Source: Anaerolinea sp.
GTDB lineage: Bacteria > Chloroflexota > Anaerolineae > Anaerolineales > Anaerolineaceae
Length of the DNA: 64,000 nucleotides
Assembly (NCBI GenBank): GCA_013824865.1
Contig: PNON01000006.1
Coordinates: forward strand, 1-64,000
Reading direction: 5' to 3'
Shown piece by piece: positions 12,983-57,974 of this stretch. Position numbers and translations under genes: made by a program. The notes under the pieces are model-generated. The model was not told the origin of the DNA. It ran no database searches and saw nothing but the letters and a program-made list of their open reading frames with translations. Each line of letters begins with the position of its first letter. Within the stretch, counting starts at the first letter, position 1.

Positions 12983-13464
12983 TTTATCTCATCTTCCTGC
13001 ATTCATCCTTTACGCAGGGTGATCCTTCCATAACTTAAGTATTAATAATTTTACTATGAGTCCGTTGATTCAGAGAACCGGGTATGCGGCAAAAAGAAAA
13101 GGAAAGATATTTACAAGCTTTATTTTTTGAATCATTTCGTAATATCTCCATGGCCTTATCGGATTCATATTACCTGGCCACTCAAATCACAGGGAAATCA
13201 TGTGTTTATTAACTAAAGTAGCATTTTGTCGCAACTGCCATTTCCAATCAATGATTTTACCCGGGTCATTCCATTCATACCACCAAGCTACATTACTCAA
13301 TTCGTAACGCTCATTATGAAAACACTTTTTAAGGTATGTTAGTTTTGACTGATTGTAGCGTTCATCAGAGATCAATTTTCGCGTAGAACAGCCCAGCCGG
13401 GACTATAGTACAGTTGCAAAATGATAGTGGATTATAATCGAATGAGCAGAATAAGGTCAGAATA
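12983..13464. other. 482-base divergent intergenic region
   Basis: This gap separates the minus-strand neuB directon from the plus-strand GT-C gene. It is AT-rich and should hold promoters for both sides. An imperfect CCTGC/GCAGG inverted repeat sits at 12,996-13,018, just upstream of neuB. A minus-strand reading frame of 62 codons (13,187-13,375) has no recognisable similarity, no clear ribosome site and no partner, so it is not called as a gene. A TATAAT precedes the plus-strand start. Nothing else was recognised. Confidence 0.5.
13433..13438 (+). promoter_or_regulatory. Candidate -10 element for the GT-C gene
   Basis: A perfect TATAAT 26 bases before the ATG at 13,465. No -35 box at standard spacing is visible; TTGCAA at 13,414-13,419 is only 13 bases away. 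AAGG lies about ten bases upstream of the start codon. Confidence 0.35.
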
Positions 13465-29200: not shown

Positions 29201-30306
29201 TTCTTCACCGCCTTCTGGTACCCCGCCATCATTCGGCGCTGATTATCATCCCAGTCCGCTTTTTCTTCTGCCTTGCGTCGGGCTTTTATGCGCATCACCG
29301 CCAGATCCACTTTGGCGCTGGATGCGTTTTTCATTAACCCTGCCAGCTCATCCACTGATCCATCTCTGAACAGCCAGCCTTCTTCGCCTGGTGTCACCCA
29401 TTCTTTGTTGGAGGGAATATCAGAAACCGCAGCTGGCAGACCGCAGGCTAGCGCTTCCATCAGCGAGACCGACGAACCATCGGTATGTGACGCGCTGATG
29501 TAGAGGTCTGCCGCCCGGTACCAGCCTGGCAGATCGTTATTCTGGATCTGCCCGGCAAAATGGACCCGGTCATTTACCCCCCCATCCCGCAGAATTTTCT
29601 CAATCTTTTCACGCAGTGATCCGCCTCCCAGTAGCAGCAGGCGCAGGTTCGGACTGTCGTGGGCGGCGCGAACAAAAGCGTGCGCGACCATATCCACGCC
29701 GTACTGCGGTTCCCAGGAGCGGTTGCAAAATAACACATCCGCATCCGTCCAGCCCAACTGTTTGCGAATGCCTTCCCCGCCACCGCTCGGTGTAAAATGC
29801 TGTAAATCCACGCCCCACGGGAAGTAGGTGCTGCGCTCCAGTGGGTGTCCATAGGCTGCGGCTTTGTTCAATACAGCCTGGCAGTCGCCAAATAGCCAGT
29901 CCGAACGGGAAAGGACGTTACGCGTCACCCACCTTGAAATCAGGTTTCGGTCAGCATGCTGCATCAGGTCGAAGCCCCACGACATGCTTACCAATGGGTG
30001 AAAGCCGCTCAATGCCGCAACAAACCCAACACTCTGAAGTGGACCGGCATGCAGCAGGTCAGGCCGCACATCCACCAACACCTCTTTCAGACTCAATACG
30101 CGTACAGGGATGTCATACCAGTGGAATTTCGCCTTCCCGCCACACCAGTCCACCATTTTCACTTTGTCCGGAATCGGACGCCCTTCCAGTTGACGACCGC
30201 TATCCTCCAGGCGCAGGTAATATGCTTCGTGCCCGCCAGTCAGGATGGCAGTCAACATGCGGTGGTCGTGCGGGCAGTAATCCCGTGAGAAATAAAGCAC
30301 GCGCAT
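29197..30306 (-). CDS. Glycosyltransferase family 4 (GT-B)
   Basis: A 369-residue retaining GT-B glycosyltransferase. The N-terminal acceptor domain contains RPDLLHAGPLQSVGFV and MSWGFDLMQHADR. The C-terminal donor domain has FCNRSWEPQYGVDMV, LLLGGGSLREKIEKIL, HFAGQIQNNDLPGWYRAADL and the family EX7E-like region SSVSLMEALACGLPAAVSD. The gene starts within the TAA stop of the neuB gene (TAATG) and its stop overlaps the next methyltransferase. It acts in the cytoplasm on a nucleotide sugar. Donor unknown. Confidence 0.92.
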   Translation of the reverse strand: MRVLYFSRDYCPHDHRMLTAILTGGHEAYYLRLEDSGRQLEGRPIPDKVKMVDWCGGKAKFHWYDIPVRVLSLKEVLVDVRPDLLHAGPLQSVGFVAALSGFHPLVSMSWGFDLMQHADRNLISRWVTRNVLSRSDWLFGDCQAVLNKAAAYGHPLERSTYFPWGVDLQHFTPSGGGEGIRKQLGWTDADVLFCNRSWEPQYGVDMVAHAFVRAAHDSPNLRLLLLGGGSLREKIEKILRDGGVNDRVHFAGQIQNNDLPGWYRAADLYISASHTDGSSVSLMEALACGLPAAVSDIPSNKEWVTPGEEGWLFRDGSVDELAGLMKNASSAKVDLAVMRIKARRKAEEKADWDDNQRRMMAGYQKAVKK

Positions 30307-31373
30307 TATTGACCCAGCTCTTCCCAGCGCAGCTCTTTACCTGCCGGTAGATCCACCAGTGCTTTTAACCCGATAACAGCATCAACCTCATTCGGTAAGA
30401 TGGCTCCCGGAGTGGCAGGCCGTAGCACATCAATCATGCTGCGGTTGAATACCTCACCTGCTTTCACATCCCGGGCTGTCCGCAGGCAGCGCCGCTGAAC
30501 CACCACGGTGTGTTGTTCGTTCTCGCACACCATTTTCTCCATAGACCCCAACGCGCATTCCAGTTCGCGGGTGCGGTCCACCATTTCTTTCCATGTAGCA
30601 GGAGTCATGGAGAAGGGATGATCCGGCCCTTCCCGTGTGTTGTCGTCTGTAAAATGTTTTTCGATTACCCTCGCTCCCAGCGTCACTGCGCCCAGCACGG
30701 TGGAGTGGCCGGCAGTGTGATCGGAAAGCCCCATCACCAGGTCAGGGAACAAAGTTCGGTAAGCCTTGAGCACATTGAGGTGAATGTGCTTGAAATTTTC
30801 CAGGCTGGCAGTGTAGTTGGTATTACACTGCATCAACACCAGCTGTGGGTTGATGGCGCGGATAACCTGCACGGCATGCTGCACCTCGCTGATGTTTGAA
30901 GCGCCTGTGGCCAGCAGTACCGGTTTGCCTGTCTGCGCCATGCGCACTAGCGTCTCATCCCAGGTGATATCGCCTGAGCCGATCTTGTATGCCGGTACAT
31001 ACGGATTGAGCATGTCAATGGTATCAAAATCATAGGGGGAGGAGAAGTAATCAATGCCCGCCCGGTCGCACTCTTCTTTCAAAACCGGTGTCCAGTCAAA
31101 GGGGATGGATGCTCCCTGGTACACTTCAAACACGGTTTTCTTCCACTTGGCCTGGTGAGAAACCTGTCCGTCCATGTGTTTGAACCCATAATCCGAGACG
31201 ATCTGCGCCGCACGAAAGTTCTGGAATTTGGCGGCATCCGCGCCAGCTTCCTTGGCCAGGCGGATCAAAAGTTTGGCCCGTTCGAGGTCTCCGTCATGAT
31301 TGGCTGAGATATCCGCGATGAAATATGTGGGATGGTTCTCGCCAATGATGTTCTTGCCTATCTTAATTTCCAT
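30306..31373 (-). CDS. neuB: Full-length NeuB-type nonulosonic acid synthase
   Basis: A protein of about 355 residues. The TIM-barrel NeuB domain carries FIADISANHDGDLERAKLL, AAKFQNFRA, YKIGSGDITWDETL, MGLSDHTAGHSTVLGAVTLG and VIEKHFTDDN; the family GPDH segment is intact. From about residue 290 a SAF/antifreeze-like domain follows (RRCLRTARDVKAGEVFNR and GLKALVDLPAGKEL). It makes a nine-carbon acid from phosphoenolpyruvate and a 6-deoxyhexosamine-type sugar. Immediately upstream are an RmlD-like reductase and a PseB-like dehydratase, so a legionaminic/pseudaminic-type product is plausible. GGAGG lies five bases before the chosen ATG; the upstream gene overlaps the start by 11 bases. Confidence 0.94.
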   Translation of the reverse strand: MEIKIGKNIIGENHPTYFIADISANHDGDLERAKLLIRLAKEAGADAAKFQNFRAAQIVSDYGFKHMDGQVSHQAKWKKTVFEVYQGASIPFDWTPVLKEECDRAGIDYFSSPYDFDTIDMLNPYVPAYKIGSGDITWDETLVRMAQTGKPVLLATGASNISEVQHAVQVIRAINPQLVLMQCNTNYTASLENFKHIHLNVLKAYRTLFPDLVMGLSDHTAGHSTVLGAVTLGARVIEKHFTDDNTREGPDHPFSMTPATWKEMVDRTRELECALGSMEKMVCENEQHTVVVQRRCLRTARDVKAGEVFNRSMIDVLRPATPGAILPNEVDAVIGLKALVDLPAGKELRWEELGQ

Positions 31374-32325
31374 CATTTCCTCCATGCATGTACGGGTTCA
31401 GGTTTTTCGGGGAGTTATCCACCATGCTGCGGAGAAGATGTGGATAACCCTGTGCATATTGTTCAAAGAATCGGTCTAACCCAGTGGATAACTGGTTGAC
31501 AGGTCTGTGTAAAACCCGCTGCAATTTGCCGGTATCCAGGCATAAGTTATTGCTCCTGGCGGCCTTTAATCCAAATTCTTGTACCTTCATCGGGCTGACA
31601 AGGCTTTCTGGCGCTCCTAACCGGCGGGCGATCTCCAGTGCGAAGTCATATTTGCTCACACAATCAGCGCCAACAACATGATACAGCCCCGAAAGTTTCT
31701 GCTCTAGCATGTTCAGGAGCATGTCAGCCAGATCCGAAGCTAATTGGGTGCGGAAGTAAACATCGGTGAAGCCTTTAACCGGCAATCCCGCCTGTAAATT
31801 GTAAAAGAACCACTCTGCCAGGCTGCGTTTGCCATACAGGCTCCAGCCAAAGATGTTGATGCGTGCCACGGCTGCATCAGGGTTATTTTTCAGTACAACC
31901 CGTTCACCTTCAAGCTTGCTACGAGCATACACACCTAGCGGGTTGGGGATGTCTTCCTCGGTGCAATTCGGCTTGGTACCATCAAACACAGCGTCGGTGG
32001 AAATGTGCACTAGCCCGGCTTTCCCTTTGCATGCCTGGGCAATCCTTCCTGGCAAGCGGGTATTCAGTTGTTCTGCCAGTTCTGGCTGCTTTTCGCAGGC
32101 ATCCACATCCGCCAGCGCGGCACAGTGGATCACCCATTCGGGTTGTGCAGTTTCCATCATGCGCTCTACCGCGCCATCTTCCATCAAATCACCAGAAAGC
32201 TGGGTAAACGGGGCGCCTTTCAAGGGCAGGGCTTTGATCTGCCCGTACACTGTGTGCACCTTCGCTGCTTCCAGCGCCAGGTTCACGCCCAATAACCCGC
32301 TTGCCCCGGTGATCAGAACGCGCAT
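31363..32325 (-). CDS. RmlD-like NAD(P)-dependent nucleotide-sugar reductase
   Basis: A 320-residue extended SDR of the dTDP-4-dehydrorhamnose reductase type. It has VLITGASGLLGVNLALEA, HCAALADVDACEKQPELA, STDAVFDGTKPN, and the catalytic YARSKLEGE. It has the usual RmlD length and no cupin domain. It is sandwiched between a UDP-GlcNAc dehydratase homologue and NeuB, so the likely substrate is a UDP-4-keto-6-deoxy-hexosamine rather than dTDP-rhamnose. No RmlC is present nearby. A Fnl/Wbj-type role (reduction toward a 6-deoxy-HexNAc) is one alternative. Confidence 0.87.
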   Translation of the reverse strand: MRVLITGASGLLGVNLALEAAKVHTVYGQIKALPLKGAPFTQLSGDLMEDGAVERMMETAQPEWVIHCAALADVDACEKQPELAEQLNTRLPGRIAQACKGKAGLVHISTDAVFDGTKPNCTEEDIPNPLGVYARSKLEGERVVLKNNPDAAVARINIFGWSLYGKRSLAEWFFYNLQAGLPVKGFTDVYFRTQLASDLADMLLNMLEQKLSGLYHVVGADCVSKYDFALEIARRLGAPESLVSPMKVQEFGLKAARSNNLCLDTGKLQRVLHRPVNQLSTGLDRFFEQYAQGYPHLLRSMVDNSPKNLNPYMHGGNDGN

Positions 32326-32329
32326 CGTA

Positions 32330-33316
32330 CTACTCTACCTCCACGGACTCCACTATCTTCTGGATTTCTGGAATGCCCAACCATTCGGTATTGGTATTAC
32401 TGGCATAGCGGAAACCATCTGCCACCTTTTTCCCCTTACCTTGCCATGCCCGGCCAAACCACATCTCCTCTGCTGGCAGCACGATGTATTTATCTTTCAG
32501 CTCAATGGTGGTGCGTGCCTCGTCCTCCGAGATCAATACTTCGTGAAGCTTTTCACCAGGGCGGATGCCAATTACCTCGATTTGCGCACCGGGGGCAATC
32601 GCCCGTGCCAGGTCCGGCATGTTCATGCTGGGAATCTTGGGAACGAAGACCTCCCCGCCCTGCATCTCCTCGATGCACTCGATTACGAAATGCACTCCCT
32701 GCTCTAAAGAAAGCCAGAAACGTGTCATGCGCTCATCCGTCAGGGTTACCCGGCCGGTTCCACGCTGCTTCAGGAATACCGGCACCACGCTGCCGCGGCT
32801 GCCCACCACGTTGCCGTAGCGAGTGCACGCAAAGCGGGTGCGCTTGTTTCCAGCATACGCATTGGATTGGATCACCAGCTTTTCCGCAGCCAGCTTGGTG
32901 GCGCCATACAGATTGGCCGGGCTGACCGCTTTATCGGTGCTGAGCGCCATCACCTTCTCAACCCCGGTATCCAACGCCGCATCGATCACATTGCCGGTGC
33001 CCAGAATATTCGTTTTCACCGCTTCCATCGGGTTATACTCGCAAGCAGGCACCTGTTTAAGCGCTGCTGCGTGCACTACGATATCCACGCCTTCCATGGC
33101 GCGTTTCATGCGTTCCAGGTCACGGATGTCGCCGATGAAATAACGCAGAGATGGATGGTCGAAGCCTTTAACCCGCATTTCGTGCTGCTTGAGTTCATCC
33201 CGGCTATAGATGATGATCTTGGCAGGATGATACTCCTTCAACATCACATCAATAAATTTCTTGCCAAAGGAACCGGTGCCACCGGTCACTAAGATTACTT
33301 TCTTCTTCCAATCCAT
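32330..33316 (-). CDS. pseB: UDP-N-acetylglucosamine 4,6-dehydratase (PseB/CapD-type)
   Basis: A 328-residue soluble dehydratase of the PseB/FlaA1 family. It starts ILVTGGTGSFGKKFIDVML. HAAALKQVPACEYNPMEAVK and STDKAVSPANLYGATKL follow, carrying the catalytic Asp-Lys and Tyr-Lys. VGSRGSVVPVF and MTRFWLSLEQGVHFV then complete the family set. The short form without membrane helices matches PseB, which makes UDP-4-keto-6-deoxy-AltNAc or GlcNAc. AAGGAG is well placed before the ATG. No PseC aminotransferase lies nearby, so the next steps are either encoded elsewhere or replaced by the adjoining reductase. Confidence 0.93.
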   Translation of the reverse strand: MDWKKKVILVTGGTGSFGKKFIDVMLKEYHPAKIIIYSRDELKQHEMRVKGFDHPSLRYFIGDIRDLERMKRAMEGVDIVVHAAALKQVPACEYNPMEAVKTNILGTGNVIDAALDTGVEKVMALSTDKAVSPANLYGATKLAAEKLVIQSNAYAGNKRTRFACTRYGNVVGSRGSVVPVFLKQRGTGRVTLTDERMTRFWLSLEQGVHFVIECIEEMQGGEVFVPKIPSMNMPDLARAIAPGAQIEVIGIRPGEKLHEVLISEDEARTTIELKDKYIVLPAEEMWFGRAWQGKGKKVADGFRYASNTNTEWLGIPEIQKIVESVEVE

Positions 33317-34096: not shown

Positions 34097-34963
34097 TTAT
34101 TCCTTTTCCTTGCATTTATTGATCACAATCAGCGGATACTGCCCGTTCTCGCCAAAAAAGCGTGGGTATTTCTCTTCAAGTAAATACAACCAGTGCAGCA
34201 ATTGCATGCCGCCCAGTTTCTCATGGATGAATGTGCGCAGCGAACGCACGCTGGCGCTGCGCCAGACCAGGATATGTATGGGAACCACCCCCTCTAATTC
34301 TTTTTTCAGCCAGGCTGCGTTATATTTTTGCACATAAGTGCCTTTCTCTTTTGCCTGGGTGCCCTTGCCAACTTTCTTCAGCCCTTTGCCGCCAGCCAGC
34401 CAGCGCCGGGTGCGGTTGAATCTTTTGACCAGGTGGTCTATTGCGCCTACCAACCCAGAGTCTGACCAGCCGTTAACCACCACAGCGGTTGAATCCAGCG
34501 CCAGCACCCGGTAGAGTTCCTGATATGCCTGCTTATGGTCGTCCCATGGTAAATGGTGGATGGTGTGCATGGACATGACACCTTCAAAAACATCTGATTT
34601 AAAAGGAAGATTGGCGACATCAGAAACAACATACAGTCCTTGATCCCCCAGCTTCTTGCGGGCTTCCTGAAGCGCCACGATGGAGATGTCCGCGCATACC
34701 CTGAACTGGTACCCGCGCAGGTATTCCATGTATTCTTCGTACTGCACCGGCCCGGAACCGGCATCCAGCAGGTACTTTCCTGATGCTTTCAGGTGCCTTC
34801 CCACCCGGCCATGGCAACGGTGAATATATTCCGCGGATACCGGGCGCAGGTCTTCATAGTGCGCATTCTGGTAGAGGCCGTCAGCTTCCAGCTGCCAGCC
34901 TACCTGGTCGTAAAATCTCCTCACTTGCTGTTTTACATCCTGATCAGTCATGTTTTTTACCAT
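34097..34963 (-). CDS. Class I SAM-dependent methyltransferase
   Basis: A 288-residue UbiE/Methyltransf_11-type enzyme. Motif I is YLLDAGSGPVQYEEY near residue 65. DVANLPFKSDVFEGVMSMHTIHH-like segments continue the core, which is followed by a C-terminal region of about 100 residues not assigned to a domain. It overlaps the end of the capsule-type GT-B gene by seven bases, with GGAG about ten bases before the ATG. It probably methylates a glycan sugar or terminates chain growth, as methyltransferases coupled to Wzt do; that coupling is an inference from position. Confidence 0.87.
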   Translation of the reverse strand: MVKNMTDQDVKQQVRRFYDQVGWQLEADGLYQNAHYEDLRPVSAEYIHRCHGRVGRHLKASGKYLLDAGSGPVQYEEYMEYLRGYQFRVCADISIVALQEARKKLGDQGLYVVSDVANLPFKSDVFEGVMSMHTIHHLPWDDHKQAYQELYRVLALDSTAVVVNGWSDSGLVGAIDHLVKRFNRTRRWLAGGKGLKKVGKGTQAKEKGTYVQKYNAAWLKKELEGVVPIHILVWRSASVRSLRTFIHEKLGGMQLLHWLYLLEEKYPRFFGENGQYPLIVINKCKEKE

Positions 34964-36543
34964 TCAATAATATCTCCGGCCAGATACCGGAAGGTGTTTT
35001 TATACTTCCTAAAGCCTTCCCCCAGAGTGTATGATACCGGGCGCTCCTGCACATCCTCCCACAACTTGAAAAGCCGCCAGGGGAAAGGCAATGAAAATTC
35101 AAAGAAAAAGGTGTAAGCGTACCGCCAAGCCAGGTCAATCTGGTCATTTACCAGGCGGTGCTGTTGCGGCTGTAAAAGTATTTTATCCAATAACTGGAAA
35201 TATTCCGGGTAGGTTTGCGGGTCAAAAGTAAATCCATTTCCCTTGTAATGCGTCTCCCCGGCCACGATGACCGGTACACCTGCCAGCGCCATTTCCATGC
35301 CGGTAGTGGTGGTGTAGACCAGCCCTAGGTCGGCCATTTCGATTAAATCGTAGGTATTCACCTTGTCCCGTGGGCCGATCAGGTGGATGTGCTCAGGCAG
35401 AGTCGCCAGCTTCTGGTTGACCACATCCACCATGGAGGGGCCATGAGTTAGCACCTCTCCGGGGTGAACACGGATGACCAACTGTACATCATTGCGCCGG
35501 GCAAAGTATTCCACGCTGCGCTCGATCCACTCAGCCATGGTCTGGCTGAATACCTGCCGGCCGAGGGTCAGGCTGTCGCCAAGCACATTGGTAGCCAGCA
35601 ACACGATCGGTCGGGAATCCAGCCCAAGCACCTTTCGTACTTCATCAGACCCTGTGCGCCGGGAAGATTGCCAGTGGCGCACGAAGTTTTCAAACAAATC
35701 CCCCTGCACCTTGGCCTGGTAATAATCCTCGATCCGTTTGCGTTGTTCAGGCATTAGCGGTTTTCCCTTGCGGGCAGCCCACAGCGCGCTTGTATCCTGA
35801 CGCATAATCTCCGAATTCTGCGCCATCCAGATACAATCCTTCTGGTCACTAAATTCATAGGTCGAGACTGGGATGCCAGCAAACTTCGCCACCCGGTAGG
35901 CTGCTCCCAACTCCTGAATGGTGCCATTGGGAACAATGACTGCGTCTGGTTTAATCTCTTCCACCAACGCTAAAAAGCGTTCAGCTGCAAAGATATTGCG
36001 CTGCAGCCGCAACCGGTAGATGTCGCTTGCCAGGTCCACCGTTTCCACCTGCAGCGTGTACTGGGCATCATAGTAACTGACCCGTTTGATCTCTTTCAAC
36101 AGTGCTGGCGGTAATCCTTTTGATTTCGAATAATCCAGCAGGGACGTGACTTCCAAGTATGGCTTTGCTTTCGCCAGTACGTCTTTGGCGTACAGGTTGT
36201 TACGCCGCAGGTCGAACTTGCTCACCGATTTTTGCCAGTCAAAATAAGGCAGGTATGCAAGGTGCGGGCGGTAACCCGCGCCAGCCATGGTCAAGCCCAG
36301 CAGTGCGGTCTGCTCGATCCAATAATGCAGCGAGGCAAAAAACATCACCCGCTTTCCATCCTGCGCTCCCCGGGCATTCGCGTTCACCTGCGCCAACACT
36401 TCCGGTAGATGATGCTGAAATTTTTTCAGCGAGAACCGGGTGTTGAGCGGTTTGATTTTTTGCTGCAACTGCCAGACCAATTCAGCGGTGTATGGCAATT
36501 CACCTAGAAAATCTTTTACAAATTTGCCCGTTGTCTTTGCCAT
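34957..36543 (-). CDS. Capsule-type GT-B glycosyltransferase-like protein
   Basis: A protein of about 528 residues resembling the gene at 7,296-8,909. The N-terminal half contains FFASLHYWIEQTALLGLTMA, and AVIVPNGTIQELGAAYRVAK lies mid-way. The C-terminal half contains LVIRVHPGEVLTHGPS and VYTTTTGMEMALAGVPVIVAG, the donor-binding pattern of capsule polysaccharide proteins. It lacks the CX2C cysteines of its relative. The ATG at 36,541-36,543 overlaps the TGA of wzt, so coupling to the exporter gene is likely. It is probably a glycosyltransferase adding a residue to the exported polymer. Confidence 0.78.
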   Translation of the reverse strand: MAKTTGKFVKDFLGELPYTAELVWQLQQKIKPLNTRFSLKKFQHHLPEVLAQVNANARGAQDGKRVMFFASLHYWIEQTALLGLTMAGAGYRPHLAYLPYFDWQKSVSKFDLRRNNLYAKDVLAKAKPYLEVTSLLDYSKSKGLPPALLKEIKRVSYYDAQYTLQVETVDLASDIYRLRLQRNIFAAERFLALVEEIKPDAVIVPNGTIQELGAAYRVAKFAGIPVSTYEFSDQKDCIWMAQNSEIMRQDTSALWAARKGKPLMPEQRKRIEDYYQAKVQGDLFENFVRHWQSSRRTGSDEVRKVLGLDSRPIVLLATNVLGDSLTLGRQVFSQTMAEWIERSVEYFARRNDVQLVIRVHPGEVLTHGPSMVDVVNQKLATLPEHIHLIGPRDKVNTYDLIEMADLGLVYTTTTGMEMALAGVPVIVAGETHYKGNGFTFDPQTYPEYFQLLDKILLQPQQHRLVNDQIDLAWRYAYTFFFEFSLPFPWRLFKLWEDVQERPVSYTLGEGFRKYKNTFRYLAGDIIEW

Positions 36544-37829
36544 CAACGGACCTCGATCTCCCAATCCAGCGCCAGGCGGATCGGACCCATGCGCACCTCG
36601 CTCCACTGGGTGCCCGGGGCGCCGGTGGCATCCACGCTGAAGACCAGCGCCTGCTCATCCTGGAAGTAGCGTTTAATACGGTATGAACTGGCATTCACGC
36701 CCAACACCACCCGGCCTTCATTGAAGGTGTTGGCCGGTACGGTGCAGCGGCTAAAATAGCGTCCGCTCCTGCGGGATGATTGCAACTCGAAACGCTGCGG
36801 GTCATCAGTATCGAAACTGGTGAAAATATGTTCACCGCGGGTGCTCATAAAATACAACCCCACCCGGAGGCCGGTGAGTGGTTGGTCCAGGATGTATTCA
36901 AATTCCACCTGGAAGGGTTCGGTCGAACGGATGGTATCCACCACCCGGCCTCTGGTATCCTTGATGCGCAATGCCACCGGTTTAAATGGGTCTGCAGTCG
37001 CTGGCACCTCGTCCGCAGCCCAGTTGCGTTCGCCCTGGCGGGATAAGCCGCTGGAAAGGTAATAATCCACCGCTTGCTGGGTTAGGGCGCGCATCACCAG
37101 CTTACCCTTCTCCAATATCATCGTTTCTTCGGTCAGGCGCAGGATAGCACTCATATTGTGACTCACAAAAAGCACCGTCCGTCCCTGCTGGGCAACATCA
37201 CTCATTTTGCCCATACACTTCCTTTGGAACTCGGCATCCCCCACCGCCAACACCTCATCCACCACCAGTATCTCCGGCTCCAGGTGTGCAGCCACAGCAA
37301 ACGCCAGACGCAGGTACATTCCGCTGGAGTAACGTTTGACCGGGGTGTCAATAAACTTTTCCACCTCGGAGAAAGCCACGATCTCATCGAACTTGCTGGT
37401 AATCTCAGTTCGTTTCATCCCCAAAATGGCGCCATTTAGAAAAATGTTCTCGCGCCCGGTCAGTTCCGGGTGGAAGCCAGTGCCCACTTCCAGCAGCGAA
37501 CCTACCCGTCCGTGAATTTCGGCATGCCCTTCTGTAGGTTCGGTCACCCGGGATAAGATCTTGAGCAGCGTGCTCTTACCGGCGCCATTGCGTCCTACCA
37601 CCCCCAGTACCTGACCCGTCTTTACTTCAAAATTGATATCTTTTAATGCCCAGAAACGATTTTCGTCCGCTTTCGGGCTGGCAGCCCGCTCGCCGGCGTG
37701 CAGCAAAGCCTGAGTTGTGGCAGAAAAGGTATCTACTATGGTATCCCGCAGGGTGCGGTAATTGGTGCCCAGCGCGCCAAGTTGATATTTTTTCCCAAGG
37801 TTAATGACTCTAATTGCGATATCGCTCAT
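36543..37829 (-). CDS. wzt: Polysaccharide ABC exporter, ATP-binding subunit (Wzt-like)
   Basis: A protein of about 428 residues. The nucleotide-binding domain has Walker A VGRNGAGKSTLLK at about 79-91, signature KRYSSGMYLRLAFA, Walker B ILVVDEVLAVGD and the His switch FVSHNM. From about residue 260 a beta-rich Wzt-type carbohydrate-binding C-terminal domain follows (FQVEFEYILDQPLTGLRVGL; FTSFDTDDPQ). Such domains recognise the finished chain end before export. The ATG is two bases after the permease stop, so a longer upstream start is rejected. With Wzm it exports the lipid-linked polymer. Confidence 0.95.
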   Translation of the reverse strand: MSDIAIRVINLGKKYQLGALGTNYRTLRDTIVDTFSATTQALLHAGERAASPKADENRFWALKDINFEVKTGQVLGVVGRNGAGKSTLLKILSRVTEPTEGHAEIHGRVGSLLEVGTGFHPELTGRENIFLNGAILGMKRTEITSKFDEIVAFSEVEKFIDTPVKRYSSGMYLRLAFAVAAHLEPEILVVDEVLAVGDAEFQRKCMGKMSDVAQQGRTVLFVSHNMSAILRLTEETMILEKGKLVMRALTQQAVDYYLSSGLSRQGERNWAADEVPATADPFKPVALRIKDTRGRVVDTIRSTEPFQVEFEYILDQPLTGLRVGLYFMSTRGEHIFTSFDTDDPQRFELQSSRRSGRYFSRCTVPANTFNEGRVVLGVNASSYRIKRYFQDEQALVFSVDATGAPGTQWSEVRMGPIRLALDWEIEVR

Positions 37830-37831
37830 GG

Positions 37832-38659
37832 TTACACCGTATCGGCGAAGGTTTTTTCCATCCGCCGGAAGTAATAAAGTCCACTGATGAAAAGGATTAC
37901 CATCACGGTGGAAGAGATCCACATCAACTCGCCAGGCGGCGTTCCACCCAGCAGCGACCAGCGGAAGCCCTGGATGATACCTGCCAGCGGATTAAGTCCA
38001 TAAATCAGCTGCCACGTTCGATCGGTGATCATCCTCGCTGAATAAGCCACAGGCGAAGCAAACATCCATGCCTGGATGAGGAAGGGAATCATCTGCTGAA
38101 CATCGCGGTAGCGTACGTTCATGGCAGAAAGCCACAGCCCCACAGCCAGGGCAGTGATCAAGGTCAGCAAGGTGAATGGAATGATCCACAGCATGTTCCA
38201 GGTGGGATACACCTTGAAGTAGAATATCATCCCGATCAGCACAACGAACGAAATGGCGAAATCCACCAGCCCACCCACCACGGCAGAGATGGGGATGATC
38301 AGCCGCGGGAAGTAGATCTTGGTGATCAGGTGAGCTGATCCCACCAGGCTGGTGCCGGAGCGCTGCAGCGCATTGGCAAATAACTGCCAGGGAAGCAGCG
38401 CCGCAAAGGTGAACAGCGGATAGGGAATGCTGTTGTCCGTAGGCAGTTTGCCAAACTTGCCGAACACCACACTGAATATCACCATCGTGAGAATTGGCTG
38501 GATGATGGCCCACGCGACTCCCAGGGCTGCCTGTTTGTAGCGCACTTTGATATCGCGCCAGATCAGGAAGTACACCAATTCGCGGTACTTCCACAGGTCC
38601 TTCAGGTTGAGCGCCACCCACCCCCGTGACGGCTTGATCATCGTAATTTCATCGCTCAT
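37832..38659 (-). CDS. wzm: Polysaccharide ABC exporter, permease subunit (Wzm-like, ABC-2 type)
   Basis: A 275-residue membrane protein with six helices and the ABC-2/Wzm pattern: LVYFLIWRDIKVRYKQAALG at the N-terminal amphipathic stretch, PLFTFAALLPWQLFANAL, and a PVAYSARMITD periplasmic segment. Together with Wzt it forms the polysaccharide exporter. GAGG lies eleven bases before the ATG. It directly follows the GxxExxY insert, which separates it from fcl. Confidence 0.95.
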   Translation of the reverse strand: MSDEITMIKPSRGWVALNLKDLWKYRELVYFLIWRDIKVRYKQAALGVAWAIIQPILTMVIFSVVFGKFGKLPTDNSIPYPLFTFAALLPWQLFANALQRSGTSLVGSAHLITKIYFPRLIIPISAVVGGLVDFAISFVVLIGMIFYFKVYPTWNMLWIIPFTLLTLITALAVGLWLSAMNVRYRDVQQMIPFLIQAWMFASPVAYSARMITDRTWQLIYGLNPLAGIIQGFRWSLLGGTPPGELMWISSTVMVILFISGLYYFRRMEKTFADTV

Positions 38660-38673
38660 ATTGCTGCTGCCTC

Positions 38674-39108
38674 TTAATTAGCATTCCCTTCGTTATTAAC
38701 CGCAGAGGGCGCGGAGATCGCTGAGTTATCAAGGAATTTATTCACGACTCGTTTTATCCCATGGGTTAATTGTCGCACATTGAAATTGATCAATAAACCA
38801 ACATTACATCCCGAAAGTTTTAGATATGTGATTAATTGAGCTTCGTGTATAGGGGTCAATCCATCTATTGCTTTTATCTCTACTATCACTTTACTCGCAA
38901 CGATTAGATCGAGACGATATCCGCACTCTATTAAGTTTCCTTTATAGACTAGTGGTAATGCTTTTTGTCTTTCAAAAGGAATACCTGCTTTGATTAATTC
39001 ATATGCCAGACAAGCTTCATAGGTAGACTCAAGCAACCCTGGACCCAGGTTTTTATGCACTTCAATCGCGCATCCCATTATTCTTTCAGTAATTTCATTA
39101 AGTTCCAT
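38674..39108 (-). CDS. GxxExxY family protein
   Basis: A 144-residue protein of the GxxExxY family (PD-(D/E)XK-like fold). [17 protein letters not shown] supplies the namesake Gly, Glu and Tyr, and [19 protein letters not shown] contains the D...ExK nuclease-like core. Its biochemical role is unknown. It is AT-richer than its neighbours, has a weak ribosome site, and lies between inverted repeats. It is not a plausible part of glycan synthesis and is best seen as a passenger inserted in the operon. Confidence 0.92.
38698..38725 (+). repeat. Left terminal repeat of the GxxExxY element
   Basis: A purine-rich CGCAGAG-type repeat within the last codons of the GxxExxY gene. It matches the right repeat in inverted orientation over its first ten bases with one mismatch. 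Confidence 0.55.
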
Positions 39109-39168: not shown

Positions 39169-40138
<970 letters not shown>

Positions 40139-40147
40139 TCATCTGAT

Positions 40148-41332
40148 CTACATATTAAATGAGCATCGAAGTTTGTCGGCCATAAATGCAAATCCATTTC
40201 CTGCAAATTCTCCGAATAGTATTTCGTCCAGCTTGCTCTCTTTGATAAATGTATTCTTTAGTTGTTCCAGCTTACCTGCTGCCAGGAATGGGGATATGGA
40301 GTCGTCAAGGATCTCCACCAATCCGCGCTCTTTTAATACGAACTGCGAATGTCCCATCTCTGGATCCTCCACAAAACTCGTGCGCACCAGAGCGGCTGGC
40401 TTCAAGTTGGACTGGCATTCCCAGATCGTCCCCCAACCGCCACGTGAGACCACACCCGCTAGGTTCGCATCCCCGAATATATCAGCGCGGACATACGTGA
40501 ATTTATCCGCCGGGAAATCCGGGTTGTTGCTGTTGCTTCCCAACACCAGTGGTTGAAATTCTGCTGGCAGGGTTTCAGCCACCCGGTGCAGCTTATAAAG
40601 GTCCGTACGAGTCCCAGAGGGGACGAACAGTATGCCCGGTCGCTCCAATTTTCTGGAGATGGGGCGGGTGAAGGTCAGTGGTGGCGTGAAAATGATTCTT
40701 TCATCAGCCGCATCTTCCCGATAGCTCAATGCGTTGATCCGCGGGATGAATTCAACGTCGAAGGTATCCTCCACCTCCACCCACAACTTTGCGTATGCAG
40801 CCAGCTCGTCGACTGTTTGATGCGCTTCCGGTTCTTCCTCTCCGGGTGGCACAGTCCCATAAAGCCTGGACATGCGCCCGGTGAAAAAGAAAATGCTATG
40901 CAGCAGGTCCACCCTCAGCGGCAAGGTTGAATTGATGACAGCGCAAAATTCCTCTGGCTGGAACCTTTTTTGAGTGGAGCCATCCAGAGATCTGGCTGGT
41001 ATACCATCTTTTAACATGGCAGCCAGCTTTCCCTCGATCTGCTTCGCATTCATGGGATTGTTCTCATCCACCAGCTTTGCACCAAACCTGGCGTAATTCA
41101 CCCCGGTACTTGAATCTAAAAGCAGCGGCTTGAAAAGATCGCCCAATTCTTTCGAGAGAAATACCCGCTTATTCATTTGGGGTATTTCTTCCTTTAAAAT
41201 TGCCGCCTGCATCTCCCCATAATAATCGGGGATCACCACAATATAGTCGCCCAGCGCCCTGGCGAAACGGGCAGCCATCAGGTATGGCGCGTTTCCGTGA
41301 CTGGTAAGCGCCAATAACGCGGGCACTTTCAC
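40148..41332 (-). CDS. GT-B glycosyltransferase of the MGT/GT28-like group
   Basis: A 394-residue protein that begins PALLALTSHGNAPYLMAARF (acceptor domain) and has ILFVPSGTRTDLYKLHRVAE, then VSRGGWGTIWECQSNL, the glycine-rich sugar-nucleotide site of GT1/GT28 enzymes. EDPEMGHSQFVLKERGL follows as the donor-side motif. It is therefore a probable glycosyltransferase, though divergent. The start is GTG, overlapping the TGA of the regulator gene (GTGA), which ties it to the regulator. Donor and acceptor unknown. Confidence 0.75.
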   Translation of the reverse strand: MKVPALLALTSHGNAPYLMAARFARALGDYIVVIPDYYGEMQAAILKEEIPQMNKRVFLSKELGDLFKPLLLDSSTGVNYARFGAKLVDENNPMNAKQIEGKLAAMLKDGIPARSLDGSTQKRFQPEEFCAVINSTLPLRVDLLHSIFFFTGRMSRLYGTVPPGEEEPEAHQTVDELAAYAKLWVEVEDTFDVEFIPRINALSYREDAADERIIFTPPLTFTRPISRKLERPGILFVPSGTRTDLYKLHRVAETLPAEFQPLVLGSNSNNPDFPADKFTYVRADIFGDANLAGVVSRGGWGTIWECQSNLKPAALVRTSFVEDPEMGHSQFVLKERGLVEILDDSISPFLAAGKLEQLKNTFIKESKLDEILFGEFAGNGFAFMADKLRCSFNM

Positions 41333-41811
41333 AGCTGCCCACTCTCTGGGAGCTCAAATACCACCCTCATGCCATCCATGCGCACCAATGGCAGGTTCGG
41401 GTCGTCTCCAATGCTCACCCCGTTTTCAAGGCAGGTCAGACGCACCACGTCCGCCATATCCCCGTCCAATTCCAGCTGGACCTGTGTGTAACCAGCTTGT
41501 TTAATTGCCGGGATGATTTCCGCCGCCCGTGAGCGGATCAGTCGGTAGAGCTGGAAGGATTGCTGCACGAAGTCCACAGTCAGACGCGCCCGCAACGCGA
41601 TCCCTTCCGGGGTAATGATATATTTCAGCTTACGGCGAGATGCGCGCATAACTTTGATAGCACCTTTTTCAATCAGGCGCTTCAAATGCCAGTTAACAGT
41701 ACCCACGGCTACGCCGAGTTGATCCGCCAGGGCAGCCTGGTTCACATCCGGATCTTTCTCAACGCCTTCCAACAGGCTTAAATCCCTTGTGTTTAATGTA
41801 GAATCTTCCAT
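41329..41811 (-). CDS. Winged helix-turn-helix transcriptional regulator (MarR-like)
   Basis: A 160-residue regulator. The winged helix spans about residues 10-75: DVNQAALADQLGVAVGTVNW (helices 2 and 3), LKRLIEKGAIKVMRASRRKL (recognition and wing), then KYIITPEGIALRARL. The C-terminal half has no recognised ligand domain. It resembles the MarR-like regulators that head exopolysaccharide operons. It is the first gene of the 23-gene run and is translationally coupled to the next gene. A palindrome overlaps its own promoter, so autoregulation and control of the whole run are likely. Confidence 0.85.
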   Translation of the reverse strand: MEDSTLNTRDLSLLEGVEKDPDVNQAALADQLGVAVGTVNWHLKRLIEKGAIKVMRASRRKLKYIITPEGIALRARLTVDFVQQSFQLYRLIRSRAAEIIPAIKQAGYTQVQLELDGDMADVVRLTCLENGVSIGDDPNLPLVRMDGMRVVFELPESGQL

Positions 41812-41814
41812 ATC

Positions 41815-41835
41815 ATTATTCAGTTATTGAATTAT
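41815..41835. promoter_or_regulatory. Candidate operator palindrome at the regulator promoter
   Basis: ATTATTCA / TGAATTAT, 7 of 8 positions paired around a 5-base centre. It overlaps the -10 box and predicted start of transcription of the minus-strand promoter. It is a good site for a dimeric winged-helix protein, most simply the regulator it precedes. Confidence 0.5.
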
Positions 41836-41858
41836 AACCCTGATAAGCGGATGGTCAA
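41831..41858 (-). promoter_or_regulatory. Sigma70-like promoter of the 23-gene operon
   Basis: On the minus strand TTGACC (41,853-41,858) and TATAAT (41,831-41,836) are separated by 16 bases. Transcription would start near 41,824 and give a leader of about 13 bases before the regulator ATG. Confidence 0.65.
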
Positions 41859-41967
41859 TACTCACACGTGCTTCCGCAAACCGCATGTCAGCCGCCAGTC
41901 AGTGGAGCATATGGAAAATAGAGAACTGATAATCCAAATCCCTGTATAATCGTCATATTCACACTGA

Positions 41968-44013
41968 ATGATCATGCGTAAATTATTTTGTATTGTCAAC
42001 AACATTGCTCTGGATTATCAAGCGCCCTTATGTTTGGCTGTGGTAAATATCCTGGCATATGGCCTGCTGATCCCCTGGCTAGGCTTCTATGGGGATGACT
42101 GGGGGTATATCTGGCTTCTCTTCAAAGGCCCTGGGCTGGAAACCTTCCTGGGTTCCAGCCGGGTGGGATTCATTCCCTTCTACAACGCCCTATCCCTGCT
42201 GATTGGTCCATACCCGGCTGCCTGGCTCGTCTATATGCTGCTGATACGCTGGTTGAATTCCCTTGCCTTCTGGCTCATATTGCATAAACTGTGGCCCAAG
42301 GATAAACGTCTCACGCTGATGACCGGCCTGCTTTTTGCGGTTTATCCGGGATTTTATCTGAACTCTGCAGCCGTCAATATCAGCATGTTTCTATTGTTGC
42401 TCACCTTCTTCTTCTTCTCTATCTATCTACATTTGTTATGGGAAGAATCACGCCACAAAAAATGGGGACTGCTGGTGGTTTCGCTTATCCTTGCCATAGC
42501 CAATATTGCCATGGCTGAATACTTCTTCTTCATGGAGATGATCCGGCCAGTTATTCTTTACCTCTTTTTCCTACCCAAGGAATTCTCCAAAAATAAAAGG
42601 TTTTTTGATACGATCAAATCATGGCTGCCTCACTTGGCTGGTTTCCTAGCTGTACTCATATGGCGTCTGCTATTTCAATCCAAAATCAATGCCCATTACA
42701 CCATCGCACTGCTGGATGATTTGCGCGCAGCACCTCTGCCGACCATCCTGGCGCAGCTCTGGCGCATGATCAACGACCTGCTCTTATCAGGACTCGTAGC
42801 CTGGTTCAGGGCTGTTTTCCCATCAGACTTGCTTCATCTACCCAACGCACCAGTAAAGATATTTATTGCGGTCCTGGTGGTGCTTACTGCTTCTTTCTTT
42901 GTAATTCAGTTGTTTATCCATACAAAATTTCGCCAAGAACCCATCAATCGCCAACAAGCCCTGCTATGGATCACCCTCGGATTGCTGTGGTTTATGGTCA
43001 GCGGCTGGTCAATCTGGCTGGCAAAACTGGAGATCACCCACATCTTCTCCACCACCCGTTTTACCATGCCTTTCATGCCCGGTGCCGCGCTGATGATCAC
43101 TGGTCTGATTATTTTGCTCCCCAATCAGCGTATTGTTCAGAATTTCATCTTCTCTTTGGTCTTCGGCAGCGCCATCGCCACCCAGCTGCTCATCGCCAAT
43201 TATTTCCGCATGGACTGGGTCAAGCAAGAATCTTTCTATCGCCAGCTCACCTGGCGTTTTCCGGGATTGCATTCTGGCAGCATGGTATTAATCTCGCGAA
43301 ATCCGTTAGAAAACGGCGAGGAGAATTCGATTTCCTCAGCTGTAAACTGGATCTACAGTCTAGGCAACGAGATTGGGGTGGATTACTACGCCTATTTCAA
43401 CCGGGATAAGTTCAGCTTTGACCTGGGTGAGTTTAAACCCGGGCAGCAATTGACCCGTCCTCACCTGATTGGCAGCTTTACAGCAGACCTGAACCGCAGT
43501 GTGGCTTTGTATCTGGATGCGCGCAACTGCATCCGCGTTCTATATCCAGGTCTGGATGACCGCAACAGCCGCTTGAGTGACTTCATGCGGGCCAATATTC
43601 CCTACACCCGGCCTGATGAAGTGCTTCAGCCAGCCAACGCTGAGACCCAGAGAGCGCTGCGGCAAGTATTCGGCAGCGAGCCTGAACATGACTGGTGCTG
43701 GTTGTATCAGGTTGCCGACCTTTCCAGCCGCAGCGGAGACTGGCCGGCAATCACCACCCTCGCGGATGAATATTTGCACCCGGATGAGTATCAAAATGAC
43801 TGGCAAAAACTGCTGGTGTTCATCGAAGCTTATGCCCGTCAGGGGGAATGGGAAAAAGCAGGCAAAGTATTTATGAATATTGGTGATCTAAAACCAGGCG
43901 AGAGAGCAGTTTTCTGCGCAGTTACGCGCAGGTGGATGGACGAGATCAATCTCGATCCCGGATTTGAACAGTTGATTACAGATAAACGCAGCAACTTGAA
44001 TTGCACAGAATGA
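41968..44013 (+). CDS. GT-C membrane glycosyltransferase-like protein, type A copy 1
   Basis: A 681-residue protein with about twelve membrane helices in the first 430 residues and a hydrophilic C-terminal domain of about 250. The acidic pair of GT-C enzymes is in GFYGDDWGYIWLL (about residues 39-51). The last 120 residues look helical and repetitive (WCWLYQVADLSSRSGDWPAI; FIEAYARQGEWEKAGKVFMN), like TPR or Sel1 units. It is paralogous to 55,831-57,873. TATAAT lies 18 bases before the ATG, and no Shine-Dalgarno is visible. It is probably a polyprenyl-phosphate-sugar-using transferase or a scaffold around one. Confidence 0.78.
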   Translation: MIMRKLFCIVNNIALDYQAPLCLAVVNILAYGLLIPWLGFYGDDWGYIWLLFKGPGLETFLGSSRVGFIPFYNALSLLIGPYPAAWLVYMLLIRWLNSLAFWLILHKLWPKDKRLTLMTGLLFAVYPGFYLNSAAVNISMFLLLLTFFFFSIYLHLLWEESRHKKWGLLVVSLILAIANIAMAEYFFFMEMIRPVILYLFFLPKEFSKNKRFFDTIKSWLPHLAGFLAVLIWRLLFQSKINAHYTIALLDDLRAAPLPTILAQLWRMINDLLLSGLVAWFRAVFPSDLLHLPNAPVKIFIAVLVVLTASFFVIQLFIHTKFRQEPINRQQALLWITLGLLWFMVSGWSIWLAKLEITHIFSTTRFTMPFMPGAALMITGLIILLPNQRIVQNFIFSLVFGSAIATQLLIANYFRMDWVKQESFYRQLTWRFPGLHSGSMVLISRNPLENGEENSISSAVNWIYSLGNEIGVDYYAYFNRDKFSFDLGEFKPGQQLTRPHLIGSFTADLNRSVALYLDARNCIRVLYPGLDDRNSRLSDFMRANIPYTRPDEVLQPANAETQRALRQVFGSEPEHDWCWLYQVADLSSRSGDWPAITTLADEYLHPDEYQNDWQKLLVFIEAYARQGEWEKAGKVFMNIGDLKPGERAVFCAVTRRWMDEINLDPGFEQLITDKRSNLNCTE

Positions 44014-44041
44014 TCTATTACGCATAAACAACGAAAAGCAC

Positions 44042-45931
44042 ATGAAAATAAAACTTTGGATTAACCAGTTGTCTGCCTCTCAAAACTCTGCTCTAATCAT
44101 CAGATTACTTGGCTTTGCAACGGTTATTTTTATTTACACGTACCAGGCATATCGTTTCGCGGATGCTATGCCTGTAAACACCGATGAGGGTAGTTATATT
44201 GCCAAAGGTTGGTTATTTGTTTCCGGCATCTATAAGCCTTTCCAAGATTACGGTCCCTGGACCAATAAAATGCCGCTCGCTTTTATTATTCCCGGGTTAG
44301 CGCAATACTTGTTTGGTCCGGGTCTGCTAACCGGCAGAGTATTTTCAATTGTGCTTGGCGTGATGATGCTTGCCGGATTTTATATTACTCTTAAGCGGTT
44401 TACCCATTATTGGCTTGCCCTGGCGCTACTTCTGATCATTGCACTCAATCCATTACTTGTCCAATACTATACACTGGCTACATCCCAGATCATTGTCGCT
44501 GCATTGCTCAGTTGGTTTTTTGTAGCAGTACTCGGCAAGAACAGGAAATTATGGCAACTCATTGCGGGGACTGTTTTATGCGTCCTTATTGTGTTTACCC
44601 GTCAGAATATGTTCCCCCTTTTTCCTCTATTTCTAGCCTACATTTTTTGGGCTCATGGGAAAAAGGCGGGGTGGATATCCGCAGGCGTAGGGTTAATGAT
44701 AATTATTTTTTTTCATACGCTCTACTGGCCAAACATATTGGATATCTGGTCTTCGTTATTGATTGGCCCGCTGGAATTCATCGCGCGGGCACTGCGCATT
44801 GACCTAAGTGCCACGCTGGCAGGTTCCAGCCCAGTCTTGCAGGCAAACTACTCAGGTTTAAGTAAACTAATAAGTTTCTGGGAAGGCGCCCGCAATCATA
44901 TCATTCCAATCATCGCAATCGTCGTCTCCTGGATTCTCTGGCCAGCCAGAAAGAAATGGAAGTGTGATGCGGATTTCAAGGATTCGGTGTTTTTATCGGT
45001 GACGCTCTTCATCCTTTGGGGCATTCATTTTTCCGCAGCTTTTTTTGGAAATTACTGTCTCAATTGTTATTCGGGGTATCTGGCTTTCTTCATCAATACT
45101 GGAATCATCCTGATTGTCATTGCCTACCCAAGCCTGGTGAAGAAACCGGGGCTGATTAGATCCATGTTGCTGGCTGTACTTGTACTGGTTTTAGCCTCGG
45201 GTGTGTTATTTAGCGCAAACATACCTCTTGAGAATTATATAAAGACTTTACCGGCTATCGTCATTAAGAATAACCATATTCAGTATGGAAAAATCAAGCT
45301 ATGGGTTTATTTGATGAAGGAGTACGAAATTTCCTTCCGGATTTCGCGCATAATTATTGCTGCCGGACTAGGTTTAATATCCGGCTTGATATTGCTATTA
45401 ATTGCCTCCATTGTGAGCTTCCTTGGTAAAAAGAAAAAGGTCGGTTTTGGCCTGGTAGCAGTTGGATTACTGGTTTTTAGCGCCCTGTTCATGATACATA
45501 CACCTCTCATGGGATACAACGAGCAAACTCTGTATTCATGCACTGGGGTATTAGAGGCAGACAGAGATGCGGGAAAGATCATCACTGAAAATTCTCCACC
45601 AGGCTCAAGGGTATACTGGTCTAATTCAGTGTCCCCCCTGCCGTTGACCTACATACTATCAAAAAACCAAATATATCCTCCCCAGCTCAGCGGTGGTGCT
45701 GCTTTCCGCATAAGTGGCGATGCCAATTTGCTGCTGAAAAAGGGATTTTGGAACGAGGAATTAGCCAGCCAATGGAAAGATGAAGCAGACCTGGTAATGA
45801 TGGATGGTGACCAGCAATGGTGGAAATCTGATCCAATGTCAAAATACTTTAAGGAAATAGCGGTAACCAATCCCTTACTTCCCTGTGATCCATTCACAAG
45901 TATTCATATCTATCAACGGAAAAGCGATTAA
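44042..45931 (+). CDS. GT-C (family 39-like) membrane glycosyltransferase
   Basis: A 629-residue membrane protein with about twelve helices. The first external loop has MPVNTDEGSYIAKGWLFVSG (acidic pair at about 48-49), followed by FQDYGPWTNKMPLAF, a pattern common in ArnT/PMT-like family 39 proteins. The C-terminal external domain begins near residue 500 (NSVSPLPLTYIL). The ribosome site is weak (GAAAAGC). It follows the type A gene by 28 bases and is probably in one transcript with it. Likely function: transfer of a sugar from polyprenyl phosphate to a glycan or protein outside the cell. Confidence 0.85.
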   Translation: MKIKLWINQLSASQNSALIIRLLGFATVIFIYTYQAYRFADAMPVNTDEGSYIAKGWLFVSGIYKPFQDYGPWTNKMPLAFIIPGLAQYLFGPGLLTGRVFSIVLGVMMLAGFYITLKRFTHYWLALALLLIIALNPLLVQYYTLATSQIIVAALLSWFFVAVLGKNRKLWQLIAGTVLCVLIVFTRQNMFPLFPLFLAYIFWAHGKKAGWISAGVGLMIIIFFHTLYWPNILDIWSSLLIGPLEFIARALRIDLSATLAGSSPVLQANYSGLSKLISFWEGARNHIIPIIAIVVSWILWPARKKWKCDADFKDSVFLSVTLFILWGIHFSAAFFGNYCLNCYSGYLAFFINTGIILIVIAYPSLVKKPGLIRSMLLAVLVLVLASGVLFSANIPLENYIKTLPAIVIKNNHIQYGKIKLWVYLMKEYEISFRISRIIIAAGLGLISGLILLLIASIVSFLGKKKKVGFGLVAVGLLVFSALFMIHTPLMGYNEQTLYSCTGVLEADRDAGKIITENSPPGSRVYWSNSVSPLPLTYILSKNQIYPPQLSGGAAFRISGDANLLLKKGFWNEELASQWKDEADLVMMDGDQQWWKSDPMSKYFKEIAVTNPLLPCDPFTSIHIYQRKSD

Positions 45932-57873: not shown

Positions 57874-57882
57874 TATGGTTTA

Positions 57883-57888
57883 ATTATA
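57883..57888 (-). promoter_or_regulatory. Candidate -10 element for the dTDP-sugar operon
   Basis: A perfect TATAAT on the minus strand, ending ten bases before the TTG start. The predicted transcript would have almost no leader. No -35 box is evident. Confidence 0.35.
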
Positions 57889-57952
57889 ACGAATCCAGTA
57901 GAATCTTGTGATCTATCCTTCGCCCGACTCTATAGTAATCCCTGTCAGCGTT

Positions 57953-57958
57953 TATAAT
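57953..57958 (+). promoter_or_regulatory. Candidate -10 element for the plus-strand methyltransferase
   Basis: A perfect TATAAT 16 bases before the ATG at 57,975, with no Shine-Dalgarno between. It is divergent from the minus-strand element at 57,883-57,888. Confidence 0.35.
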
Positions 57959-57974
57959 AAAGCCAGACAACATT

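Follow-up and report, generated by a model that had tools for sequence, protein, structure and literature searches.

The analysed window, a 64,000-nucleotide stretch of Anaerolinea sp. DNA, contains a minus-strand polysaccharide gene row with a predicted operon headed by a winged-helix regulator gene (Table 1). The start codon of this gene lies at 41811, downstream of a palindrome on the minus strand. A GxxExxY/PDDEXK_3 protein (159 bits, cut-off 35) is encoded at 38674-39108 (minus), where its gene interrupts the export operon and separates the fcl-like from the ABC permease gene. Divergently from the regulator, two large membrane-type proteins are encoded at 41968-45931 (plus), for which no NCBIfam match (the first at E up to 0.1, the second at 1e-10) and, for the first, no Pfam match was obtained; the intergenic region may also hold the promoter of these plus-strand genes.

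Table 1. Promoter, operator and predicted operon features in the window
Feature	Position	Strand	Remarks
-35 box TTGACC	41853..41858	minus	read directly from sequence
-10 box TATAAT	41831..41836	minus	shares bases with left operator arm (TATAATTCA)
Palindrome	41815..41835	none	arms ATTATTCA (41815-41822) and TGAATTAT (41828-41835)
Conserved, putative operator core ATTCA-N5-TGAAT	41818..41832		minus-strand reading ATTCAATAACTGAAT; conserved across relatives
Winged-helix regulator, 160 aa, TIGR04176 (MarR_EPS)-like	41329..41811	minus	first gene of the operon; presumed operator binder
Glycosyltransferase-like gene (weak Glyco_tran_28_C)	40148..41332	minus	rare here in relatives (1/80 loci)
GDP-L-fucose-synthase-like (fcl-like) epimerase	39173..40129	minus	homologue downstream of regulator in 73/80 loci
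ABC-2 permease, Wzm-like	37832..38659	minus	homologue downstream in 71/80 loci
ABC ATPase, Wzt-like	36543..37922	minus	homologue downstream in 65/80 loci
Capsule_synth-type gene	34957..36606	minus	part of predicted operon

A sequence-only reading of this DNA had claimed a minus-strand TTGACC-16-TATAAT promoter with a near-perfect palindrome of 8-bp arms covering its -10 box and start site. Both elements are present. The promoter, with its 16-nt spacer, scores 11/12, the best of six in 40500-43000 (shuffled sequences: mean 2.8, sd 1.5), and the palindrome arms, which are complementary at 7/8 positions and separated by the 5-nt spacer GTTAT, overlap 5/6 bases of the -10 box and the predicted start at approximately 41824, a position inferred from spacing. 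In this one sequence alone the palindrome is unremarkable and not beyond chance; an equally good one occurs in 138/500 dinucleotide shuffles of the 156-bp intergenic region. The closeness of the inverted repeat to the start codon might point to an RNA leader hairpin or attenuator, but RNA folding does not stand out (z 0.05 and 0.35) and, with a start predicted to fall within the spacer, one arm would remain untranscribed, which makes a leader function highly improbable.

The family sample comprised 101 genomes, 84 of which encode homologues of the regulator (the sole G091 homologue is 30% identical). Eighty loci (L031-L110) were cut from genome contigs, and the 110 loci L001-L110 yielded 99 distinct upstream sequences; as these orthologues are related, the conservation counts are not independent. 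ATTCA-N5-TGAAT was found at most 170 nt upstream of the orthologous regulator gene in 94/99 distinct upstreams, nearly always as TATAATTCA. In the footprint alignment of 93 sequences, in which ATTCA and TGAAT were fixed by the search design and the flanks left free, the left flank TATA is near-invariant (T 92/93, A 93/93, T 91/93, A 93/93), the right flank reads W-T-T-G (W 93/93, T 88/93, T 92/93, G 85/93) and the spacer follows RYNRY, which is dyad-symmetric in its own right. The right flank of the window site is AATGA where the consensus has TTTTG, a point counted against the explanation favoured below. Within the 80 loci, 82 sites were found in 13,600 upstream bases versus 13 in 719,764 bases elsewhere; 11 of these 13 stray sites read TATAATTCA, the L107 operator lacks TATA (GAAATTCA) and the L053 site lies inside the regulator gene. 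Judged by sequence comparison across relatives, recurrence of the palindrome is far beyond chance. No match was obtained in five upstreams: L050 has one mismatch, L024 falls on an assembly gap, and the others are L081, L086 and L107. In the last three the proximal site is absent and a putative operator is located approximately 1 kb upstream, ahead of a GDP-mannose 4,6-dehydratase gene (gmd) that precedes the regulator gene, an arrangement that would fit the operator reading.

Furthermore, 12/99 upstreams contain two sites when one mismatch is allowed. The upstream member is usually AAAATTCA and lacks TATA, with the exception of L068, where TATA is retained. Centre-to-centre distances to the upstream copy are 24-28 bp in L050, L055, L067, L089, L099, L106 and L108, 36 bp in L068 and 49-50 bp in L042 and L100, whereas the second sites in L043 and L073 are probably due to chance. 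As the distal copies mostly read AAAATTCA rather than TATAATTCA, the operator appears distinct from the -10 box. A -35 box matching TTGACA at 5/6 or more positions with 16-18 nt spacing is present in 52/92 distinct upstreams with TATAATTCA. The poor -35 boxes (at most 4/6) of the other 40/92, together with the additional sites 24-28 or 49-50 bp further upstream in some loci, which could act differently, would be compatible with activation or dual control, in which the regulator aids polymerase at weak promoters and merely modulates its own gene. Activator sites usually lie upstream of the -35 box. At almost all loci the main site spans the -10 box and the inferred start, where a bound dimer would exclude polymerase (PMC5487221 contains a general statement on repressor position), and activation or dual control is accordingly judged unlikely.

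The strict pattern AATTCA-N5-TGAATWTT matched 118 times in the 101 family genomes versus twice for the reversed control. Of these matches, 63 are located less than 200 nt upstream of a same-strand regulator gene, 57 of them with an RYNRY spacer, which only 11 of the remaining 55 contain; several strict sites away from the regulator lie inside genes and were treated as chance. A strict site adjoins the regulator in 63/84 regulator-bearing family genomes, and the other 21 were inspected individually. Looser versions occur in G000 (the genome of the window), G038, G022 and G024 (L001, L002, L029 and L025), and among 15 further genomes fetched, 14 have TATAATTCA-N5-TGAA with no more than one mismatch across the ten core bases. 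The upstream is unreadable in 3/84 genomes (contig ends in G089 and G072, an assembly gap in G018), and a site with at most one mismatch is present in all 81 readable upstreams; the 3' half carries one mismatch in G040, G044, G046, G081 and G090, which was counted against the operator. A strong promoter only, with the palindrome as a by-product of its AT-rich -10 region, would account for the frequency of such palindromes in shuffles of the single sequence. Yet the 3' arm, although it plays no part in a promoter, is kept with TATAATTCA in these 81 genomes, and the TATA part is missing from the distal copies, leaving this explanation with next to no probability.

Sites with the RYNRY spacer occur in 59/84 family genomes with the regulator and in 0/17 without it. 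In a class sample of 150 genomes, in which genomes also listed in the family sample carry identical handles, the regulator was identified in 14, and the full pattern in 7/14 of these versus 0/136 without the regulator; the match counted for G000 is a copy on contig C11 and not the window site. The other seven class regulators (42-49% identical, tblastn) each have an exact ATTCA-N5-TGAAT just upstream.

The window contains a single exact core. The two other regions named for a palindrome search hold no site, the best candidates having 3/10 (12983-13100) and 4/10 (57874-57974) mismatches, and the genome-wide search proposed alongside them returned the exact core at nine places versus one for a reversed control pattern. 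With these nine cores the regulon of the own genome is thin. The cores on C5, C13, C17, C27 and C41 were rejected as regulon members, having non-consensus spacers and coding or unrelated positions. Contig C11 (L192, 4146-4162 and 4461-4477) contains two full operator-like sites 315 bp apart in a mobile-element-like region with a Toprim/primase-type protein, a DNA polymerase beta-like fragment and many TGTACTTGTGTGTACTT repeats, and may represent a mobile element carrying the site of a host regulator. On contig C46 (L193, 428-442), a site is located ahead of an Rrf2-family gene, followed by genes for a possible substrate-binding protein and two membrane proteins; its right arm TTGAAT could be the -35 box of a promoter on the plus strand, with TATACT 17 nt further along. 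The C11 and C46 sites are unexplained by a simple regulon picture and were counted against it.

A second clade of regulators, 34-37% identical to the first (L196, L197, L209-L211), is preceded at the same place by GAATTCA-N5-TGAAT, mostly with GAG/CTC-like outer flanks and an upstream TTGAC -35 box. The adjoining site reads GAGAATTCA-N5-TGAAT or a near form, with longer arms in L196 that match perfectly as CATGTGAGAATTCA-N5-TGAATTCTCACATG. Within the family sample, GAGAATTCAAAAAATGAAT is confined to the three paralogue-bearing genomes, where it always adjoins the paralogue; an additional copy exists in G025 (L245 at approximately 1048; G025:C25:89947), which is away from the paralogue and has no long ATG/GTG ORF starting within 200 nt on that strand. 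Four other family genomes contain the GAGAATTCA core with different spacers. A plasmid search for MarR_EPS homologues gave 20 matches, from which 12 loci were fetched. TTCA-N4/5-TGAA is present at most 200 nt upstream of the alphaproteobacterial MarR_EPS gene in 10 of the 12, with N4 spacing in nine and N5 in two copies in Chelatococcus, corresponding to 11 matches in 2,400 upstream bases versus one in the other 39,716 bases; none of five controls, which varied the pattern or the spacing, matched upstream at these loci, which are not independent as most are Rhodobacterales. The Aestuarium upstream holds a degenerate version, and no upstream motif was found for the Aliarcobacter gene, which was counted against the pattern.

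The sites near the Rrf2 gene and in the mobile-element-like region, both away from the regulator, would be expected if another DNA-binding protein recognised the element and the first gene were merely co-regulated. The consensus-spacer site is nonetheless restricted to regulator-bearing genomes in both samples, a distinct flank variant occupies the corresponding position in the paralogue clade, and related half-sites precede the alphaproteobacterial homologues, all of which make recognition by another protein quite improbable.

The best NCBIfam match of the regulator is TIGR04176 (MarR_EPS) with 69.1 bits, below the curated cut-off of 88 bits, which was reached in 0/201 genomes of a phylum-wide sample. 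Both share the winged helix and a location in EPS/polysaccharide clusters, and the TTCA/TGAA half-sites recur in a palindrome upstream of alphaproteobacterial TIGR04176 genes; three tested plasmid homologues score 144-149 bits and that of Chelatococcus 52 bits. The regulator differs by its score (69 of 88 bits), by an extra C-terminal alpha/beta part (160 versus approximately 120 aa) and by the N5 spacer of its operator, compared with mostly N4 in TIGR04176 members. Pfam HTH_24 is above its cut-off, whereas MarR scores 22.6 versus a cut-off of 24.6 bits and exceeds it in the relatives L031 and L042. The AlphaFold2 monomer model (mean pLDDT 90, 38 sequences) places the winged helix at residues 4-66, followed by a single long helix (68-105) and a small alpha/beta part at the C-terminus (110-153). 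The top Foldseek rows were mostly MarR proteins and the nearest solved structures MarR, Sso10a and PadR winged helices; the fold search with the whole model matched the C-terminal part to no named relative, a result that does not mark its fold as new, and FabT was the best match of a PDB sequence search (E 0.015). Alignment of the model with MarR-family rows (VIA-align) gave Z 10-12 over approximately the first 75-120 residues. Like the classical autorepressors MarR, MepR and FabT (PDB 5h3r, 4lln, 6jbx), the regulator combines a winged helix with a palindrome in its own promoter and presumed autorepression, but in its model no N-terminal dimerisation helix precedes the winged helix, and the C-terminal end consists of the single long helix and the small alpha/beta part; in addition, its predicted operator has its own sequence. 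In PadR/Sso10a-like proteins (PDB 4hw0, 3elk, 3hhh) the winged helix is likewise followed by a long helix (Z 11.4-11.8), but with sequence identities of 14-17% the relationship is evidenced by fold only. Relatives of the regulator share the C-terminal consensus GxGDVADICRLTCLEQG, and the longer Chelatococcus relative contains GAGELAEIAILAARDN in its C-terminal part with a sub-threshold CoA_binding_3 match; this part may have a nucleotide-binding origin.

The palindrome is located in the promoter of the regulator's own gene and is conserved together with it. The element is very probably the operator of an autoregulated polysaccharide operon, at which a dimer of the first-gene winged-helix protein would bind and repress its own operon. 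That protein is the presumed binder because the element is conserved at the head of the regulator's operon, co-occurs with the regulator, moves to the head of the gmd-regulator operon where the regulator lacks its own promoter, and is replaced by a matching variant ahead of paralogous regulators; to this extent the proposed layout for repression by the first gene product gains support in the form of a predicted operator. A dimer of the 160-aa protein would contact ATTCA-N5-TGAAT with one recognition helix per half-site, within an extended form resembling CAAAATTCA-N5-TGAATTTTG. The left half shares bases with the -10 hexamer (TATAATTCA) while its right counterpart lies over the inferred transcription start, a layout described as ordinary for MarR-type regulators in PMC5487221, and steric autorepression is accordingly the simplest reading: the bound dimer would exclude RNA polymerase and reduce transcription of the regulator, the GDP-fucose-synthase-like enzyme, the Wzm/Wzt exporter and later capsule genes, until the dimer might be released by a metabolite or some state that the C-terminal alpha/beta part would sense.

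This protein is likely to control gmd as well in sister lineages. A second promoter-operator precedes the Capsule_synth-type homologue of the same cluster in L039, L040, L045, L180 and L181, of which L045 and L181 represent one genome region. The 12 putative operators away from the regulator are located before gmd (eight), a capsule-synthesis-type gene (three) and a 673-aa ORF (one), and in a sister family a second full site lies ahead of gmd in five genomes. The identity of gmd was established by HMM for L196 only (444 bits, cut-off 415), while the L198 call was made solely from an ATGCC start after the site, the gene being absent from the ORF list. The gmd gene of the window's own genome has no site with fewer than two mismatches, which was counted against the favoured explanation.

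Literature searches, several of them broad, found no described operator and no experimental operator work for TIGR04176-type regulators; PMC10599003 and PMC8007912 contributed a transcript increased under salt and an entry in an acylation table. The element would be an ordinary kind of switch, with a well-defined predicted operator for a large uncharacterised regulator group. This widespread group (84/101 family genomes) thereby gains a precise candidate binding site and a set of predicted targets in the Anaerolineae, bacteria with little experimental gene regulation, and with a near-identical site ahead of the gene in nearly every relative examined, the switch is now testable in a poorly studied family. 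The operator core appears to be common to the alphaproteobacterial relatives, with a change of spacer, and one binding study could therefore inform many polysaccharide clusters. More speculatively, EPS-associated winged-helix regulators might share one old operator code, TTCA-N4/5-TGAA in the promoters of their own genes, from Chloroflexota to Alphaproteobacteria. In Anaerolineae this code would govern both GDP-fucose-type sugar steps (gmd and fcl-like) as well as the exporter, and the regulator could then serve as a master switch of surface polysaccharide that responds to nucleotide sugars through a C-terminal part derived from a reduced nucleotide-binding fold, a broader reading that we regard as possible but tentative.

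The same gene row also encodes, at 30306-33316 (minus), a UDP-GlcNAc 4,6-dehydratase (PseB; 492 bits, over the cut-off) and a NeuB/PseI-like synthase below its cut-off, which suggests a nonulosonic-acid sugar in the polysaccharide of the window.
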